A stretch of 64,000 nucleotides of DNA, taken from contig NZ_VIWU01000001.1 in the NCBI RefSeq assembly GCF_007994075.1, positions 2,418,001 to 2,482,000 of the forward strand, written 5' to 3'. A program made the translations under genes and the position numbers. Numbering within the stretch: the first letter of the stretch is position 1; each line of letters opens with the position of its first letter. The notes under the pieces were generated by a model, which was not told the DNA's origin, made no database searches, and saw nothing but the letters and a program-made list of their open reading frames with translations. Source of the stretch: Pseudonocardia hierapolitana. GTDB taxonomy: Bacteria; Actinomycetota; Actinomycetes; Mycobacteriales; Pseudonocardiaceae. Below are positions 5,884-12,899 of the stretch, in pieces.

Positions 5884-6480
5884 GTGCTGACGGCCATCCT
5901 CGATGCTGCCGCCGGTTGGCCGTTGCCCGCGGTGCTGACGGCCGCGAGTGCACTGCTGATCGTGGAGAGCGGATCGCTCGTCGGCATCCTCCTGCCCGGC
6001 ACGACACTGCTCGTCGCGCTCGGGCTGTGGACGCTGACCGTCCCGGGCGCGCTCGCCCTCGCCGTGGTGGCGTCGGCGGCCGCCACCGTCACCGGCGCCC
6101 ATCTGGGCTGGCTACGGGGGCGATCCGGTGCGCCGGTCGGCGGAACACACGGTCGACTCGGCCGCGTCACCGACGGCCCGGTCCGGCAGGCGAGCAGGTG
6201 GCTCGCCGAACGCGGCCCGGCGGCCACCGCGATGCTCCTGGCCTGCGGCCACTGGGCCGCGGCAGCCCGGCCGGTGCTGCCGCGGGTGGCGGGCGCGGCG
6301 GGGGTGCCGTACCGCACGGTGGGGCCGGTGCTGGTCCTCTCCGGCAGCGGGTGGGCGACGACGCTCGTGCTGCTGGGCAACCGGGTCGGCGCGTTCGTGG
6401 TGACGACCGCGGCCTGGGTCCCGCTCCTGCTGGTGGCGTTGCTGGTCGTGGCGATGGTGATCCGCTCGCGCACCCGATGA
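5884..6480 (+). CDS. DedA/VTT-domain membrane protein
   Basis: This is a 198-residue polytopic membrane protein. The N-terminal region has the DedA signature LLIVESGSLVGILLPGTTLLVALG, followed by a second hydrophobic block around residues 50-72, a soluble loop with RQASRWLAERGPAATAMLLACGH, and two C-terminal helices. DedA proteins are implicated in flipping undecaprenyl phosphate or phospholipids and in membrane homeostasis. GTG 5884 (VLTAILDAAAGWP) is chosen; an upstream ATG at 5824 gives a charged, non-homologous extension. The TGA at 6478-6480 overlaps an ATG of the next gene's frame. Confidence 0.85.
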   Translation: MLTAILDAAAGWPLPAVLTAASALLIVESGSLVGILLPGTTLLVALGLWTLTVPGALALAVVASAAATVTGAHLGWLRGRSGAPVGGTHGRLGRVTDGPVRQASRWLAERGPAATAMLLACGHWAAAARPVLPRVAGAAGVPYRTVGPVLVLSGSGWATTLVLLGNRVGAFVVTTAAWVPLLLVALLVVAMVIRSRTR

Positions 6481-6485
6481 GGAGC

Positions 6486-6505
6486 CTCTCATCCAGGCTT
6501 CATCC
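6486..6505 (+). promoter_or_regulatory. 11-bp-spaced direct repeat CTCTCATCC-N2-GCTTCATCC, putative OmpR-type operator
   Basis: Two TCATCC hexamers (6489-6494 and 6500-6505) are spaced by exactly 11 bp, as expected for tandem binding of an OmpR-family regulator on one DNA face. The second hexamer ends 31 nt before the GTG at 6537. The same element lies with the same 31-nt distance before the two-component operon start (11283-11302). Confidence 0.55.
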
Positions 6506-6536
6506 GCACGGAACGCGGCGCGACGAGCCTGGGCCG

Positions 6537-7709
6537 GTGACGACCGCACCGCTCCCGCTCCTGCTCGGTCCCGACGCCCGCGAGCTGCTCGCCGTCGCGC
6601 TCGAGGGCCATCGCAGCCGGCTCCGGACGCTCCGCGCGGTCACCGTGGGGGTGCAACCCGGCGGGGCCACCGTCGTCCAGTACGCCGCCGACGTCGAACG
6701 CGCCGACGGCAGTGTCACCCGGGAGACGCTCACCGCCACCACCGGCGACCGCATCCCGGAGGGCGCCGCGGTGCTCGCCGGCCACGGCGTCCAGGTCGGC
6801 GTGTGGCGCTGGCCGCAGGACCCGGCGCTGCCCGCGCTCGCCACCGCGACCGATCCCGTCCGGCTCTCCGCGGCGCTGCGGGACGCCGGCTCGGCCCGCG
6901 ACAGCGTCCCGCGGATCCGGACGCGCGCCTACCGGCCGGGGCGGCGGGCGGTGCTCGAGGTCGAGGGCGGTGGGCCGCGGCTCTACGTCAAGGTCGTCCG
7001 GCCGCGGGCCGTCGCGGCGCTGAAGGCCCGGCACGACCTGCTGGCCTCGCACGTGCCCGTGCCGCGCGTGCTGGCCGCCACCGCCGACGGGATGCTCGTC
7101 CTCGACGAGTGCCCCGGGATGTCGCTGCGGTCGCACCTGTCCCGTGACCTCCCGGTGCCGTCGCCCGCCGACCTCGACGATCTGCTCGGCACGCTTCCAC
7201 CCGCCCTGCTCGACCGGCCGCGCCGCAGCACGCACCTGGAGCGCGTCCCGCACTTCACCGCTGTGCTCGCTGCCACCGCGGTCACCGGGGAGGCCGAGCT
7301 GGCCCGGCTCGACGCCCTGGCCACGAGGCTCGCGCAGGCCGATCCGGGAACGCATCCCGACGTCGCCGTCCACGGCGACTTCTACGACGGGCAGCTGCTC
7401 TGCGACGAGCAGCGCATCACCGGACTGGTCGACGTCGACACCGCGGGGCCGGGGCACCGCATCGACGAGTGGGCCACGCTGCTGGCCCACCTGTCCGTGC
7501 TCGCGTTGCACGGCACCGCGGCCGCCCGCCACTACGGCGCCCGAGTGCTCGCCCACGCCGAGGAGCGCTTCTCGCGGTCCGAGCTGCGACCACGGGTGGC
7601 CGCGGCGGTGCTGGGCCTCGCCACCGGGCCCTTCCGGGTGCAGCAGGCCGGATGGACCCGGCACACACGGGCCCGCCTCGGCCTGGCCGAGCAGTGGGCG
7701 ACCGGATGA
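6537..7709 (+). CDS. Aminoglycoside phosphotransferase (APH)/kinase-fold protein
   Basis: The 390-residue protein has the protein-kinase-like APH fold in its C-terminal two thirds. It shows a nucleotide-lobe lysine segment (GPRLYVKVV), a catalytic loop VHGDFYDGQLL and a metal-binding DVD in GLVDVDTAGPG. The catalytic-loop Asn is replaced by Gln (HGDxxxxQ), a variant tolerated in some members. Substrate is unknown; these enzymes phosphorylate antibiotics or small metabolites, sugars and choline. GTG 6537 is favoured over ATG 6477 because it leaves the CTCATCC direct repeat in non-coding DNA at the same spacing as at the two-component operon. It follows the dedA gene. Confidence 0.8.
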   Translation: MTTAPLPLLLGPDARELLAVALEGHRSRLRTLRAVTVGVQPGGATVVQYAADVERADGSVTRETLTATTGDRIPEGAAVLAGHGVQVGVWRWPQDPALPALATATDPVRLSAALRDAGSARDSVPRIRTRAYRPGRRAVLEVEGGGPRLYVKVVRPRAVAALKARHDLLASHVPVPRVLAATADGMLVLDECPGMSLRSHLSRDLPVPSPADLDDLLGTLPPALLDRPRRSTHLERVPHFTAVLAATAVTGEAELARLDALATRLAQADPGTHPDVAVHGDFYDGQLLCDEQRITGLVDVDTAGPGHRIDEWATLLAHLSVLALHGTAAARHYGARVLAHAEERFSRSELRPRVAAAVLGLATGPFRVQQAGWTRHTRARLGLAEQWATG

Positions 7710-7723
7710 GAACGGCCTCATCC
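7704..7723. promoter_or_regulatory. GGATGAG-N6-CTCATCC inverted repeat at end of phosphotransferase gene
   Basis: A perfect 7-bp inverted repeat of the same CTCATCC half-site overlaps the TGA of the phosphotransferase gene and lies ~76 bp before the small exported protein gene at 7799. Orientation differs from the two direct-repeat sites, so membership of the same regulon is less certain. Confidence 0.35.
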
Positions 7724-7798
7724 CGCTCTCCCGCGGTCCTCACCGGCGGCCCCGATCGTGGATCACGTCAACCCGAGCACTCCTGAAGGAGCGTCCAC

Positions 7799-8101
7799 AT
7801 GACCACATGGAAGGTCCTCACCCTCGGCGCGGCCCTCACGGGCCTCGGCGTCGCAGGCGCCGGCATCGCGGCGGCCGAGGAGGGCGTCCCCCTCGCGGCT
7901 CCGCAGCCGGTCTCGGTCTCGGCCGCAGACGCCGCCGGAGCACCGCTGGTCGGCGACCCCTCCCCCGAGTCGGCCGACTCCCCGTTCGAGAGCCCGGTCG
8001 ACTCCGCCGAGTCGCCCTACGACAGCCCCGACGACCACACGCCCGACGACCACACGCCCGATGACCACACGCCGGACGACGACACCCCCGACGTCGACTG
8101 A
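7799..8101 (+). CDS. Small exported protein with acidic PDDHT repeats
   Basis: The 100-residue protein has a clear Sec-type signal peptide (MTTWKVLTLGAALTGLGVAGAGIAAAEE, cleavage probably after AAA). The mature part is rich in Asp, Ser and Pro, repeats DSPxES-type units, and ends with PDDHT, PDDHT, PDDHT, PDDDT. No known domain is visible. The His/Asp-rich tail could bind divalent metal or interact with cell wall, but this is inference. The start has a strong GAAGGAG RBS, and a 15-bp-stem hairpin follows at 8119. It is one of three small exported acidic proteins around the two-component system at 8813-11001. Confidence 0.8.
   Translation: MTTWKVLTLGAALTGLGVAGAGIAAAEEGVPLAAPQPVSVSAADAAGAPLVGDPSPESADSPFESPVDSAESPYDSPDDHTPDDHTPDDHTPDDDTPDVD
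8026..8085 (+). repeat. 4 x 15-bp coding tandem repeat
   Basis: Four consecutive 15-bp units starting CCCGACGACCACACG encode PDDHT three times and PDDDT once. Units 1 and 2 are identical and unit 3 differs by one base. Repeat number could vary between strains. Confidence 0.9.
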
Positions 8102-8118
8102 CGGCCTCTGCGGGCAGC

Positions 8119-8155
8119 GAAGGGGTGCGTGGGCAGCCGCCCCACGCACCCCTTC
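8119..8155 (+). terminator. Perfect 15-bp stem-loop after small exported protein gene
   Basis: GAAGGGGTGCGTGGG (8119-8133) pairs perfectly with CCCACGCACCCCTTC (8141-8155) across a 7-nt loop, 17 bp after the TGA at 8101. No U-tract follows, as is common for actinobacterial terminators. Confidence 0.7.
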
Positions 8156-8414
8156 CCGCCCGACGCACCCCTCGTAGGACCACGCATCCCGTCGAGACGG
8201 CGCGCGAACCGGCACGGGCGCGCCAACTCCCCCACCCGCTCGGCACGTCCCCTGGCGACGCAGCCCGTCGACCCGTTGCACGATCTGCGGGCTGCGCGGC
8301 CGATACGATCGCCGCTCGTCGCGCCACCTCGCCCGTTCGCGGAACCCCGCTAACGCGGCCGGAGCCGGCCCGATGGTCTGAGTGGAGCTGTCGCCGTGTG
8401 GAAAGGTGATCGTC
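8156..8414. other. Intergenic stretch with no recognisable gene
   Basis: The 259 bp between the terminator and the start at 8415 hold no convincing reading frame. A GGAAAGG ribosome-binding site at 8400-8406 closes the stretch. No promoter hexamers could be identified with confidence. Confidence 0.5.
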
Positions 8415-8816
8415 GTGCGGTTTCCGCCCCGACTCGTGCTCGCGGCCTCGGCGCTCGGCATGGTCGCCGCGAGCAGCGGTGCCGTGCTGCTCATGCCCGA
8501 ACCCGCGGAGACCGGCGCCGTGCCGGTCCCCGAGATCACCTCGCCCCGGCAAGAGCAGCAGCAGGCACCGGCACCTGCGGAGCCGGTGACAGCTCCCGCG
8601 CCCGCGATCACGGGCGCCCAGATCGCCGAGCTCGCCCTCGCACCGGCGCGTGACCGGGCCGCCGCGTTGATCGAGGAACAGGCCCGCGCCGAGGCGGAGG
8701 AGGAGCGCGCGGCGCGGCGCGGCGACGACGACGACCGGTGGGACGACCTGCGCGACGAGATCCGCGAGGCGTGCGACGACGGCCGGATCCGCGGCCAGAT
8801 CTGCCGGTCCGGTTAG
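8415..8816 (+). CDS. Exported or membrane-anchored protein with acidic, charged tail
   Basis: The 133-residue protein begins with GTG 8415 (VRFPPRLVLAASALGMVAASSGAVLLMPEP), an N-terminal signal or anchor segment with GGAAAGG upstream. A Pro/Ala/Gln linker (residues ~30-65) is followed by a predicted helical, highly charged segment (LIEEQARAEAEEERAARRGDDDDRWDDLRDEIREACDDGRIRGQICRSG) with two Cys that could form a disulfide outside the cell. No known domain. Its TAG (8814-8816) overlaps the TAA of the response regulator on the other strand (8815-8813), so the 3' ends of the two genes physically overlap. It belongs to the group of small exported proteins around this two-component system. Confidence 0.7.
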   Translation: MRFPPRLVLAASALGMVAASSGAVLLMPEPAETGAVPVPEITSPRQEQQQAPAPAEPVTAPAPAITGAQIAELALAPARDRAAALIEEQARAEAEEERAARRGDDDDRWDDLRDEIREACDDGRIRGQICRSG

Positions 8817-9478
8817 CGACCGTCGTCCAGGCGGTACCCCATCCCCCGCACCGTGACGATCCGCTCCGCACCGAGTTTGCGGCGCAGGTAGCGGACGTAG
8901 ACGTCCACCACGTTCGACCCGGGGTCGAAGTCGTATCCCCACACGTGGCTGAGCAGCTGCTCCCGGGTGAGCACCTGGCCGGGGTGGCGCAGGAACGTCT
9001 CGACGAGCGCGAACTCACGCGCGGACAGGTCCACGGTGCGCCCGTCGACGTGGGCGCGCCGGGTACGCAAGTCCAGCTGCAGGTCCCCGTGCGAGAGCAC
9101 CGTGAGCTCCGGCGTCCGGTGGGAGGCCAGCCGCAGCCGCACGCGCGCCAGGAGCTCCTCGAACCGGAACGGCTTGGGCATGTAGTCGTCGGCGCCGCCC
9201 TCGAGGCCGGCGACGGTGTCCTGCACGCTGTCGCGCGCGGTCAGGACGATCACGGGGATGGGACAGCCGTCCTCCCGCAGCGATCGCAGCACCGCGAACC
9301 CGTCGAGGCCCGGCAGCCCGATGTCCAGCACCATCAGGTCGAAGCCGCCGGTCATCGCGTAGTCGCGGGCCGACGGCCCGTCGCCCACCACCGTGACGGC
9401 GAACCCGTTCGCCGCCAGCCCCTTCTCGACGAACGCGGCGATGCGCGGCTCGTCCTCCGCGATCAGGATGCGGCTCAC
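8813..9478 (-). CDS. OmpR/PhoB-family response regulator
   Basis: The 221-residue protein has a receiver domain (ILIAEDEPRIAAF..., phospho-acceptor Asp near residue 52 in MVLDIGLPGLDG, conserved Lys in MPKPF near 101) and a C-terminal winged helix (VDLSAREFALVETFLRHPGQVLTREQLLSHVWG...VDVYVRYLRRKLG...VRGMGYRLDD). GTG 9478 overlaps the TGA of the histidine kinase gene (9475-9477), so the kinase and regulator are translationally coupled. OmpR-type regulators bind tandem 10-11-bp-spaced direct repeats. The TCATCC repeats at 6486 and 11283 are the obvious candidates nearby. Confidence 0.95.
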   Translation of the reverse strand: MSRILIAEDEPRIAAFVEKGLAANGFAVTVVGDGPSARDYAMTGGFDLMVLDIGLPGLDGFAVLRSLREDGCPIPVIVLTARDSVQDTVAGLEGGADDYMPKPFRFEELLARVRLRLASHRTPELTVLSHGDLQLDLRTRRAHVDGRTVDLSAREFALVETFLRHPGQVLTREQLLSHVWGYDFDPGSNVVDVYVRYLRRKLGAERIVTVRGMGYRLDDGR

Positions 9479-11001
9479 GAGACCTCCACGGCCGGGATCT
9501 CCACCGTGAACGTCGACCCGCGTCCCGGCACGCTGTCCAGGAGTACCTGCCCGCCGTGGGCCACGGCGATGGCCCGCACGATCGACAGCCCGAGCCCCGC
9601 GCCCTCCGATCTGCGGGCGGTCGAGCCACGGGAGAACCGCTCGAAGATCCGGTCCCGGTCGGCGGCAGCGACGCCTGCGCCGGAGTCGGACACCCAGAAC
9701 CGCAGCCGTCCGCCGGTGAGCTGCGAGCCGAGGGCGATGCGGTCGCCGGGACCGGTGTGGCGGCATGCGTTGTCGGCGAGCGCGACGACGGCCTGGGTGA
9801 TGCGCTGCGGATCGAGCCGGGCGTCGAAGCGGGCGGCGGTCTCGAGCACCCACTCCCGGTCGCCGAGCTGCTCGACCTTCTCGACGACGTCCGCGGTGAG
9901 CGCGGCGACATCCACGGCCTCGACGTGCAGGAACGACGGCTGCTCCGAGCGGGCGAGCAGCAGCAGGTCCGACACCATGCGGTTCATCCGGCCCAGCTCG
10001 TCGTCGACGAGCGCGACGGTGGCCCGCACGTCCTCGGGGTCGTTCGGGTCGAGGACCTCCAGGTGGCCGCGCACGATCGTGATCGGGGTGCGCAGCTCGT
10101 GGCCAGCGTCGTCGGCGAACCGGCGCTGGGCCGCCACGCCGGACTCGACGCGGTCGAGCATGGCGTTGACGGTGCGGACCAGCTCACCGAGCTCGTCCGA
10201 GTCCTCCGCGTCGGGGATCCGGCGGGACAGATCGGTGTCGGTGATCGTGCGCGCGGTCTCGGCGACGTCGCGCAACGGCCGCAGGATGCGCCCGGCCACG
10301 AGCCAGGCAGCCGCTCCCGCACCGAGCACGGTGACACCACCGACGCCGAGCATCAGCTGGGCGGCGGTGTTGGCGGCGGCGCGCTCGGCGTCGGCGAGGT
10401 AGGCCGCCACGATCACGCCGCGGGCCGGGTCGCCCACGAGCGTCACCGGGATCGCGAGGTAGTGCACCTCGCCTGCGGCCGGGCTCTCGTACGAGCCGGT
10501 GCGCGGGACGTCGACGCCTGCCACCAGCGCGGCGAACGCGGGGTCGTCGGCGAGCACCTCGGGTGTGCCCGGCTCCTGCCGGCTCTGGGTGCGGTAGACG
10601 CCGTCGACGTAGCCGAGGAACTTCTCGTTCGGCCGCGCCACGTTGTACGCGATCGCCTCGCCGATCACCTCGTCGACGGTGCGGAACGCCTGACCGGTGC
10701 GCGGGTTGATCCCGGTGGCCGTGTGGCCGGCGAACTCGTCGACCTCGAAGCGCAGCGCCTCCTCCATCCGGTGGTCGGTGGCCTGCACCAGCAGCCGCCA
10801 CGTCACGAGCGTGACGACGCCGAGCGCGAGGAAAACGAGCAGAAGGACCCACCCGATGATCCGGCTCCGGGCCCTGGCCAGCCGCCACCGATGCGGCGGT
10901 GGGTCGGGCGTCGGAGGCATCTGTGACGGGGTCCTAGCGGGCGAGGGGGCTCGGTGCTGGTCGAGGACATCCTCGCCGACAGGGAGATCAGTCGTCGTCA
11001 T
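9475..11001 (-). CDS. Two-component sensor histidine kinase
   Basis: The 508-residue kinase has TM1 at about residues 48-68, an extracytoplasmic sensor loop of ~145 residues, and TM2 at about 214-238. These are followed by a HAMP linker (RILRPLRDVAETARTITDTDLSRR), the HisKA H-box FADDAGHELRTP (His ~301), and HATPase motifs ALADNACRHT, SDSGAGV and GAGLGLSIV. The loop has no recognised ligand domain. ATG 11001 overlaps the end of the small protein gene at 10988 by 14 bp, which suggests coupled translation; an alternative ATG at 10920, with AGGA upstream, would remove a proline-rich leader. It is the middle gene of the operon small protein - kinase - regulator. Confidence 0.93.
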   Translation of the reverse strand: MTTTDLPVGEDVLDQHRAPSPARTPSQMPPTPDPPPHRWRLARARSRIIGWVLLLVFLALGVVTLVTWRLLVQATDHRMEEALRFEVDEFAGHTATGINPRTGQAFRTVDEVIGEAIAYNVARPNEKFLGYVDGVYRTQSRQEPGTPEVLADDPAFAALVAGVDVPRTGSYESPAAGEVHYLAIPVTLVGDPARGVIVAAYLADAERAAANTAAQLMLGVGGVTVLGAGAAAWLVAGRILRPLRDVAETARTITDTDLSRRIPDAEDSDELGELVRTVNAMLDRVESGVAAQRRFADDAGHELRTPITIVRGHLEVLDPNDPEDVRATVALVDDELGRMNRMVSDLLLLARSEQPSFLHVEAVDVAALTADVVEKVEQLGDREWVLETAARFDARLDPQRITQAVVALADNACRHTGPGDRIALGSQLTGGRLRFWVSDSGAGVAAADRDRIFERFSRGSTARRSEGAGLGLSIVRAIAVAHGGQVLLDSVPGRGSTFTVEIPAVEVS

Positions 11002-11251
11002 CCGGGCCGTCGTCGTCCGGGTCGTCGTCATCGTCGTCGATGGGCGGGGGCGGGGCGACGTAGCCCTCGTGGTCGCGCGGCGCGGGCTCCGCGGGGGCCG
11101 CCGGTGGCGCGGGCGGCGCGGCGGGCGCCTCGACGACGATGGGCTCGATCGGGGGCGGCTCGGCGTCCGCGCCCGAGCCCAGCGCGACGGCCCCGGCCAG
11201 TACGCCGACGACGAGCAGCACGACCGTGGCGATGACCAGCGGGAGGCGCAC
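10988..11251 (-). CDS. Small membrane-anchored protein with poly-Asp tail, first gene of two-component operon
   Basis: The 87-residue protein starts at GTG 11251 (VRLPLVIATVVLLVVGVLAGAVALG), a single membrane anchor or signal. A Pro/Ala/Glu-rich extracytoplasmic stretch follows, and the protein ends in an Asp-rich tail (DDDDDDPDDDGPDDDD). No known domain. It overlaps the kinase start by 14 bp. Upstream at exactly 31 nt lies a TCATCC direct repeat (11283-11302), so the operon probably controls itself. An accessory role for the kinase, for example metal or peptide sensing, is inference from position and composition. The reading frame extends to 11398 but the extra residues look non-coding. Confidence 0.65.
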   Translation of the reverse strand: MRLPLVIATVVLLVVGVLAGAVALGSGADAEPPPIEPIVVEAPAAPPAPPAAPAEPAPRDHEGYVAPPPPIDDDDDDPDDDGPDDDD

Positions 11252-11282
11252 GGGCCGATCCTGGGGTCCGCGGGTGGCCCCC

Positions 11283-11302
11283 GGATGAGAGCCGGATGAG
11301 AG
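11283..11302 (-). promoter_or_regulatory. 11-bp-spaced direct repeat CTCTCATCC-N2-CTCTCATCC, putative operator of the two-component operon
   Basis: On the plus strand this reads GGATGAGAG twice with 11-bp phase (GGATGA at 11283-11288 and 11294-11299). On the minus strand it matches the repeat at 6486-6505 in 9/9 and 7/9 bases of the two halves. It ends 31 nt before the GTG at 11251, the same distance as at the phosphotransferase gene. Confidence 0.6.
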
Positions 11303-11402
11303 GACTCTCATCGCCGCGGCCCCGCCGCAGCGAAGCGGAGGCAGTCCCACACTGTCCGATTTCCGCCAGTCGCCGCCCGTTGCAGGTGGCAGAGTCACTC
11401 TC

Positions 11403-12899
11403 GTGCTGCTCGACCAGGATCGTTGCTACCGCGCCGTCGCCTCGCGTGACGCCCGCTTCGACGGGCACTTCATCACGGCGGTGCGCACCACCGGCATCTA
11501 CTGCCGGCCGTCGTGCCCCGCGGTCACGCCGAAGCGGCACAACGTCGAGTTCCTGCCCACGGCGGGCGCGGCCCAGCAGCGCGGCTACCGCGCGTGCCGG
11601 CGCTGCCAGCCCGATGCGGTGCCGGGCTCGCCCGACTGGAACCTGCGCGCCGACCTCGCCGCGAGGGCGATGCGCCTGATCGCCGACGGCGTCGTCGAGC
11701 GGCAGGGTGTGCCCGGGCTCGCGGCCCGGCTCGGCTACTCGGAGCGGCACCTGAACCGGGTGCTCACCGCGGAGCTCGGGGCCGGCCCGCTGGCCCTCGC
11801 GCGGGCCCACCGGGCCCACACGGCCCGGCTGCTCGTCGAGACCACACCGCTCGGGATGGCCGACATCGCGTTCGCGGCCGGCTTCGCGAGCGTGCGGCAG
11901 TTCAACGACACGGTCCGCGAGGTCTACGGCGTACCGCCCACGACCCTGCGCGCGGAGGCGGGTCGCCGCGGCAGTGCGGTGCCCGCCGTCGCCGGCACGC
12001 TGGTGCTGCGCCTGCCCTACCGCCGTCCGTTCGACGCCGACGGGCTGCTCACGTTCTTCGCGGCCCGAGCGCTCGACGGGGTCGAGTCGATGGAGGACGG
12101 CACGTACCGCCGCACGCTGCGGTTGCCGCACGGTGCGGCGACGGTGGCGCTGGACCTCACGCCGGCGCCGCGCAACGGGCACGTCGTCGCCACGCTGCGC
12201 CTGGCGGATCCGCGCGACCTCGGCCCAGCGGTCGCGCGGATGCGCAGGCTGCTCGACCTCGACGCCGACCCGGTGGCCGTCGACGCCGTGCTCGGCGCCG
12301 ACCCGGACCTCGGGAGGTCCGTTGCGGCGGTGCCGGGGATCCGGCTCCCCGGCACGGTCGACGGCGTCGAGACGGCGCTGCGCGCGGTGCTGGGCCAGCA
12401 GGTCTCCGTGGCCGCCGCCCGTACGGCGGCGAGCAGGCTCGCCGCCGCGCTCGGCGAGCGCCTCCCGCCCGGCCTGGCCGGTGACGGTCCCGACCTGCTG
12501 TTCCCCACCCCGGAGGCGATCGCGGAGCGCGCCGCCGAGGTGCTCACCGGACCGCAGAAGCGGATCGCGACCGTGCTCGGGCTCGCCACCGCCGTCGCCG
12601 ACGGCTCGCTCGTGCTCGACCCCGGCTGCGACCCCACCGAGCTGCGGGCCACGCTCTGCGCGCTGCCCGGCGTCGGGCCGTGGACGGCCGGCTACCTCGC
12701 GATGCGACTGCTCGGCGACCCCGACGAGCTGCTCGCCACCGACCTCGGCGTGCGCCGCGGCGCCGCCGCGCTCGGCCTCCCGTCCGACCTCGCCGGTCTG
12801 ACGGCCAGGGCCACCGGCTGGGCGCCGTGGCGCTCCTACGCCGCCACCCACCTCTGGCGGGCGATGCCCGTCACCACCTCGAACGGAAGGACGTCATGA
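11403..12899 (+). CDS. alkA: Ada-AlkA fusion: DNA-3-methyladenine glycosylase II with Ada regulatory half
   Basis: The 498-residue protein joins an Ada N-terminal zinc domain, an AraC-type DNA-binding domain (about 80-185) and an AlkA-type glycosylase. The zinc ligands are Cys34, Cys38, Cys65 and Cys68 in YCRPSC...ACRRC; the family's methyl-acceptor Cys is among them. The glycosylase has an AlkA_N segment followed by HhH-GPD, with LPGVGPWTAGY and the catalytic Asp in LLATDLGV. The protein is expected to sense methyl phosphotriesters, activate the operon and excise alkylated bases. GTG 11403 has no obvious RBS. It overlaps ogt by ATGA, forming an adaptive-response operon. Confidence 0.95.
   Translation: MLLDQDRCYRAVASRDARFDGHFITAVRTTGIYCRPSCPAVTPKRHNVEFLPTAGAAQQRGYRACRRCQPDAVPGSPDWNLRADLAARAMRLIADGVVERQGVPGLAARLGYSERHLNRVLTAELGAGPLALARAHRAHTARLLVETTPLGMADIAFAAGFASVRQFNDTVREVYGVPPTTLRAEAGRRGSAVPAVAGTLVLRLPYRRPFDADGLLTFFAARALDGVESMEDGTYRRTLRLPHGAATVALDLTPAPRNGHVVATLRLADPRDLGPAVARMRRLLDLDADPVAVDAVLGADPDLGRSVAAVPGIRLPGTVDGVETALRAVLGQQVSVAAARTAASRLAAALGERLPPGLAGDGPDLLFPTPEAIAERAAEVLTGPQKRIATVLGLATAVADGSLVLDPGCDPTELRATLCALPGVGPWTAGYLAMRLLGDPDELLATDLGVRRGAAALGLPSDLAGLTARATGWAPWRSYAATHLWRAMPVTTSNGRTS

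Follow-up and report, generated by a model that had tools for sequence, protein, structure and literature searches.

AgrR of Cupriavidus metallidurans recognizes the AgrR box ATKACA-N4-TGTMAT, a 6-4-6 inverted repeat accompanied by in-phase direct half-sites. According to its description (PMC7380067), inverted and direct half-sites both contribute to binding and activation, and AgrR occupies a type II activator position with positive autoregulation. CusR of Escherichia coli is reported to prefer AAAATGACAAnnTTGTCATTTT (PMC11195947). In Mycobacterium tuberculosis, leaderless transcripts account for 26% of the genes with a primary start and follow a TANNNT -10 element (PMC3898074), and MprAB was reported to induce sigE (PMC5855569). 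Here, these systems are compared with a locus of Pseudonocardia hierapolitana in which three similar sites are putative operators of an OmpR-family two-component system. The window is the whole analysed stretch of 64,000 nucleotides (contig NZ_VIWU01000001.1, positions 2,418,001 to 2,482,000), belonging to a genome of 8,856,958 bases (8.86 Mb) designated G000; L labels refer to fetched loci and G labels to scanned genomes.

The preferred explanation, to which we assign a probability of about 0.8, is that the response regulator encoded amid the three sites uses them as its operators, with an AgrR-like layout of inverted and direct half-sites and a role in class II activation. A first-pass annotation had noted two direct repeats in which TCATCC hexamers are spaced by 11 bp, each ending 31 nt before a GTG codon (6537 and 11251); both were recovered exactly (Table 1). 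It had missed the inverted half GATGAG upstream of either repeat (6476-6481 on the plus strand and 11312-11307 on the minus strand), which makes all three sites copies of one palindrome, GATGAG-N6-CTCATC. The inverted arrangement it had proposed at 7704-7723 was indeed present, as GATGAGAACGGCCTCATC at 7705-7722, but it proved to be the same palindrome as in the other two sites rather than a merely related one.

Four exact copies of GATGAG-N6-CTCATC were found in the genome, three of them in the window. A composite pattern, consisting of the palindrome, the next half and the -10 element with up to three mismatches, retrieved four genomic sites, again three in the window, and none for its reversed control. 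The exact pair TCATCC-N5-TCATCC occurred at only two places of the whole genome, namely the two direct repeats (reversed control: 0). With up to one mismatch, it matched twice in the window against 0.20 expected, two matches being reached by one out of 100 shuffles, and it matched at 21 places of the genome versus four for the reversed control. One-mismatch copies alone therefore carry little weight, and the exact copies hold the signal. The refuting condition named by the first-pass annotation, a chance frequency of the motif in the full genome and in relatives, was checked, and the outcome favoured function. The fourth exact palindrome (8744215) was dropped; it had no composite match within three mismatches, nor was any match found in its 9 kb stretch, L162. 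At two of the three sites, GATGAG includes the TGA with which the preceding gene ends (6478-6480, and 7707-7709 for the APH-fold gene), so that operator and coding sequence overlap there by a few bases.

Relatives' loci were fetched with the kinase as query (9475-10962, omitting the first 23 codons of the frame starting at ATG 11031), and the best 80 of 246 stretches encoding a relative were retained. The kinase system was thereby found in several actinobacterial families, including Pseudonocardia, Mycolicibacterium, Rhodococcus, Geodermatophilus and relatives, Herbidospora and Nocardioides. In the 75 loci offering enough sequence, the 600 bp before the kinase match were searched for the core ATGAGA-N4-TCTCAT. 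The core was exact in 64, had one mismatch in five, and at least four mismatches in the remaining six. Among 1460 control segments of the same loci, six contained it exactly and none with one mismatch, while the reversed pattern never scored better than four mismatches. Autoregulation of the operon, as claimed by the first-pass annotation, gains comparative support from this palindrome, present with at most one mismatch in 69 out of 75 relatives. Upstream sequence was too short in L013, L026 and L042, and no operon site was found among the fetched loci in L037, L058, L073 and L080.

Columns were counted over 74 rows (the window and 73 loci), with offsets measured from the start of the palindrome; L034 and L039, two poor matches with three mismatches, are included in these rows and left out of the 71-site operon set. 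Offsets 1-6 and 11-16 were almost invariant. Offsets 1-6 and 12-15 had an information content of about 1.8-2.0 bits, versus 0.8-1.65 bits for offsets 22-27. Direct half-sites follow the palindrome in steps of 11 bp, with TCTCAY at offsets 22-27 and a weak third TCA at 35-37. The best conserved element is hence a 6-4-6 inverted repeat, ATGAGA-N4-TCTCAT, to which in-phase direct half-sites are added, and not the plain OmpR-style tandem direct repeat initially proposed.

In 54 out of 74 loci, versus three out of 73 upstream control segments, the opposite strand carried a second palindrome (at most two mismatches) at a distance of 1.9-3.4 kb downstream from the start of the kinase. With at most three mismatches, sites preceded 20 of the 20 exported-protein genes and 23 of the 31 APH genes found in relatives; the latter include L028 and L061, matching with three mismatches and having an unrecognizable inverted arm, and no site was detected at this threshold in the eight remaining APH loci. 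These loci, together with the genome scans, favoured the early suggestion that matching sites mark true regulon members.

Two scans extended this picture, both sharing species with the 80 loci and so not fully independent of them. In 200 genomes of the order, the exact pattern ATGAGA-N4-TCTCAT-N7-TCA was present in 20 (reversed control: 0) and the kinase (E<=1e-80) in 37. Seventeen genomes had both (Fisher p=7e-12 for co-occurrence, related genomes being treated as independent), and in each of them the coordinates place a site less than 500 bp upstream of the kinase. Twelve out of 14 kinases of at least 59% identity were accompanied by the exact pattern; the other two genomes displayed one-mismatch sites (G120) and two-mismatch sites only (G172). 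Of the three motif-bearing genomes without a kinase match, G055 contained a truncated regulator and an Asp-rich frame, and G131 a site 61 nt before an APH relative. In the genus, 28 out of 62 genomes encoded a kinase of at least 61% identity, and the composite site (at most two mismatches) was present in all 18 genomes whose kinase reached at least 69%; in G250 it stood at the end of another contig, before a small Asp-rich gene. Among the other 34 genomes, only G202 and G245 displayed such a site, that of G245 being unexplained. G202 (L207) carries a decayed locus, with fragments of the kinase, regulator and APH genes and operators that are still recognizable. G217 has a second near-perfect site (L211:3556) before another Asp-rich protein, whose start is at offset 61; it lies near a 40% identical kinase and may represent a paralogous copy of the system.

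Spacing to the start codon was similarly constrained. The operon start codon fell at offsets 60-63 in 71 out of 71 sites (62: 34, 61: 29, 63: 7, 60: 1). The window has its two GTG codons (11251 and 6537) at offset 61 and ATG 7799 of the exported-protein gene at offset 94. An in-frame start at offset 61 or 62 was found for 21 of the 23 relatives' APH genes preceded by a site, which upheld the GTG start assigned to the phosphotransferase-like gene, while starts of exported-protein genes were mostly at offsets 90-99. A -10-like pair, A at offset 50 and T at 54, was kept in 62 out of 74 operon rows for each base, in 21 and 22 out of 23 APH sites, and in 19 out of 20 exported-protein sites each; no conserved -35 element appeared in the column counts of the 74 operon rows. 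As this pair and the start codon sit at fixed offsets, the kinase operon and the APH-fold gene look leaderless. An A/T pair about 10 bp before the start codon and no conserved -35 are features in common with the leaderless TANNNT promoters of M. tuberculosis (PMC3898074); unlike those, the promoters considered here have a putative regulator site upstream, and their transcription starts are predicted.

Comparison across relatives showed, at the level of sequence, the element itself, its fixed spacing and its linkage to the two-component system and its genes. Judged in the same way, the sites are genuine, under selection and linked to this system. We infer that the regulator binds them under control of phosphorylation, that it activates rather than represses, and that transcription starts are leaderless. 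Most likely, the response regulator would bind the 6-4-6 repeat ATGAGA-N4-TCTCAT as a symmetric pair, and further molecules would occupy the direct half-sites that follow in phase, TCTCAY after 11 bp and the weak TCA after another 11 bp. The array of bound half-sites would then end about 11 bp short of the -10 element, where the regulator could replace the -35 element and recruit RNA polymerase. In this manner it would activate three units: its own operon, the gene of the exported acidic protein and that of the APH-fold kinase. Transcripts of the operon and of the APH gene would start at the GTG or within a base or two of it.

Several observations weigh against this explanation. In the order scan, 20 of the 37 kinase-bearing genomes lacked the exact pattern, most of them with kinases at 40-47% identity, and no relative of the window's proteins was found in the 13 kb taken from the motif genome G170. 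Before the APH gene of L023, L028, L050 and L061, the direct repeat is kept but no clear inverted half accompanies it, so not every target needs the palindrome. The -10-like hexamers of the window have only the A and T in common with TANNNT and miss its first T, which leaves the leaderless operon and APH gene a prediction. The MprA-like paralogue has related TCTCAG half-sites, and since these are very close to TCTCAT, cross-binding between the paralogous regulators is possible. Finally, 10 of the 28 kinase orthologues of the genus (61-64% identity) had no composite site within three mismatches, and the regulators of these 10 genomes displayed an unchanged recognition helix with a different preceding loop (L197-L206, L034 and L058); the operator thus does not follow the regulator everywhere. 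The 12 loci of this clade ("clade B") represent 10 genomes, L034/L199 and L058/L206 probably being the same records. No Asp-rich exported frame was found in their 12 stretches (7-13 kb each, the rest of the genomes not being searched), versus at least one in 69 of the 78 other loci. In this clade, the operator and the Asp-rich genes would thus seem to have disappeared together.

A plain tandem direct-repeat operator in 11-bp phase, with the inverted arm being secondary, would account for the four APH loci without a clear inverted arm, for the conserved direct half at offsets 22-27 and for the TCTCAG direct repeats at the MprA-like paralogue. We consider it quite unlikely, as conservation at the operon site peaks in the columns of the inverted arms, few relatives have the exact direct pair, and exported-protein sites keep the palindrome even where the next half has become TCTCCC (12 out of 20). 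Palindromes of 16-18 bp are also typical of other dimeric regulators, and the element might accordingly be bound by a transcription factor that is not a response regulator. This is very improbable: no other regulator gene was recurrent among the eight window proteins compared over the 80 loci, and the Ada/AlkA gene with its AraC-type domain was present in only 13 of them.

A further alternative is that the sites belong to the MprA-like paralogue, or that both regulators use them through a common TCTCA half-site. The paralogue is the nearest one to the regulator in its own genome (49% identity) and heads an MprAB-like operon (L193), whose promoter region contains TCTCAG-N5-TCTCAG (L193:7071) and whose protease was recognized by reading the translation. 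The fourth composite site (G000 2351265-2351318, L149) lies upstream of a gene read from its translation as a sigE-type sigma factor. This site fits TCTCAG repeats of the MprA type, its mismatches are mainly in the inverted arm, and a near-identical sequence occurs in G211, which has no kinase match at E<=1e-80. In view of the TCTCAG repeats, the G211 copy and the report that MprAB induces sigE (PMC5855569), the site was dropped as a regulon member and is probably a site of the MprA-like paralogue. Attribution of the window sites to that paralogue is improbable in turn, since the palindrome co-occurs with the window kinase. Repression instead of activation remains unlikely: the sites reach near the -10 element and some regulators do both (PMC7380067), but they lie upstream of it, clear of the -10 and the start. 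Their spacing is fixed and a conserved -35 was not seen, as a type II activator would lead one to expect.

Activation by the window regulator from an AgrR/CusR-type operator accordingly remains the working model. The corresponding layout was found here: before the -10 stand a 6-4-6 inverted repeat and, in phase with it, a direct half-site. Like AgrR (PMC7380067), the locus combines the inverted repeat with an additional direct half-site, and a type II position and positive autoregulation are predicted; unlike AgrR, its half-sites are ATGAGA/TCTCAT, the host is actinobacterial and leaderless starts are predicted. The CusR core ATGACA-N4-TGTCAT (PMC11195947) differs from ATGAGA-N4-TCTCAT by one base per half, and, as with CusR, the predicted regulon is very small and local; target genes differ, and the present regulator does not reach the cut-off of the heavy-metal subfamily model. 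Indeed, although heavy-metal models were the best NCBIfam matches, the regulator scored 206.7 bits against a cut-off of 279.2 (response regulator, TIGR01387) and the kinase 212 bits against 292.55 (sensor kinase, TIGR01386). As both proteins fell under these curated cut-offs, the system is treated as AgrR/CusR-like in working and no membership was assigned. No metal-resistance gene, and none for silver or copper, was found among the eight proteins of the window compared with Pfam, and the one further composite site of this genome precedes the sigE-like gene; the search did not extend to targets with other types of site. The MprAB-like operon encodes the nearest paralogue of the regulator in the genome and resembles the present system in its TCTCA half-sites in 11-bp phase. 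The present system does not display the regulator-kinase-protease order with TCTCAG direct repeats that marks MprAB: MprAB is arranged as regulator, kinase and HtrA-type protease, whereas the order here is small protein, kinase and regulator, and the MprAB-like operon has TCTCAG direct repeats without an inverted arm, plus the sigE-type site.

Table 1. Operator sites, -10-like elements and genes of the locus, in window coordinates.
Feature	Coordinates	Strand	Remarks
Inverted repeat GATGAGGAGCCTCTCATC, putative operator of APH-fold gene	6476..6493	+	Before APH genes of relatives too
Direct repeat CTCTCATCC-N2-GCTTCATCC	6486..6505	+	First half doubles as right arm of inverted repeat; 31 nt before GTG 6537
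-10-like GAGCCT	6525..6530	+	By reading; A at offset 50, T at offset 54
APH-fold kinase-like gene	6537..7709	+	Pfam APH 44.3 bits; predicted local distance difference test (pLDDT) of model 92.3; GTG start
Inverted repeat GATGAGAACGGCCTCATC, putative operator of exported-protein gene	7705..7722	+	Next half degenerate, TCTCCC
-10-like GATCGT	7754..7759	+	By reading; predicted transcription start about 7766, leader about 33 nt
Exported acidic protein, 100 aa	7799..8101	+	Signal-like N-terminus, Asp/Glu-rich; ATG start
OmpR-family response regulator	8813..9478	-	Pfam: Response_reg (91.2 bits), Trans_reg_C (95.4 bits); both cut-offs exceeded
Sensor histidine kinase	9475..11031	-	Pfam HAMP, HisKA, HATPase_c; ATG 11031 is candidate start
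Small protein, 87 aa	10988..11251	-	Hydrophobic N-terminus, Pro/Ala-rich linker, poly-Asp tail; GTG start
-10-like CAGGAT of operon	11258..11263	-	By reading and column counts
Direct repeat CTCTCATCC-N2-CTCTCATCC	11283..11302	-	31 nt before GTG 11251
Inverted repeat GATGAGAGTCCTCTCATC, putative autoregulatory operator of operon	11295..11312	-	Conserved upstream of relatives' kinases

Of the eight window proteins compared, only the kinase (80 out of 80 loci) and the regulator (79 out of 80) were near-universal. Tblastn with the window proteins detected the APH-fold protein in 31 loci, the exported protein in 20, the Ada/AlkA protein in 13 and the small protein in six. At the first operon gene, at least 10 Asp were counted among the last 45 residues in 69 out of 71 relatives (exceptions L005 and L027). 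The exported acidic protein matched no Pfam family. The APH-fold protein scored only 33 bits with the aminoglycoside 3'-phosphotransferase model NF033068 (cut-off 205), and the first Foldseek rows of its model were the mycobacterial maltokinase 4u94, with 15% identity and a template modelling score (TMq) of 0.48, and APH(3')-Ia. The kinase model had a mean pLDDT of 81.4 and a predicted template modelling score (pTM) of 0.45; structure-search rows covered mainly kinase residues 268-494, and no conclusion on the sensor domain was drawn for this reason. Two neighbouring genes were also noticed. A divergent DNA repair gene of the Ada/AraC/AlkA type (11403-12899, plus strand) starts about 90 bp from the operon operator and was near the kinase in 13 of the 80 relatives. 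The other (8382-8816, plus strand) encodes one more small exported protein, acidic and containing two cysteines, and lies tail to tail with the regulator gene, the 3' ends overlapping; no operator was found before it.

Sites of more distant relatives were followed by other genes. In L157 (8274) and L158 (7051), a DUF4956 gene follows a site that stands immediately behind the regulator gene, with a VTC-domain gene next in L158. Sortase genes stand beside Asp-rich exported frames in L066 and L070, and a protein kinase (L075) and a phytase-like protein (L161) were also encountered after sites or beside Asp-rich genes. In three genomes (L154, L155 and L156), a site far from the kinase precedes an Asp-rich lipoprotein-like gene with its start codon near offset 62; the L154 protein, the one tested, belongs to DUF7282. 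No common function emerged among the 10 site-following or neighbouring proteins tested. Overall, predicted targets appear to be mostly Asp-rich exported proteins, plus the APH-fold kinase, and the Asp-rich products invite the guess that the signal is a cation or polycation.

No description of the motif or the system was found in the literature searched, which left out most subscription journals. The kind of operator is already known; new here are the half-site and the target set. One may speculate, with considerable doubt, that this is a widespread undescribed actinobacterial two-component system with an AgrR-like operator, whose regulon is built around surface polyanions, namely membrane-anchored and exported poly-Asp proteins and, in distant relatives, the DUF4956 and VTC-domain pair. 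It might sense cations or cationic attack and build a negative surface buffer, with feedback on the neighbouring kinase from the poly-Asp protein of the leaderless gene. The comparison provides a two-component system of several actinobacterial families with a single precise operator and a small predicted regulon. It extends the AgrR/CusR-type combination of inverted with direct half-sites beyond Gram-negative metal regulators, to leaderless-looking promoters. Recurrent unnamed genes for small exported proteins with poly-Asp tails are thereby tied to a regulator, which offers a route to their function.

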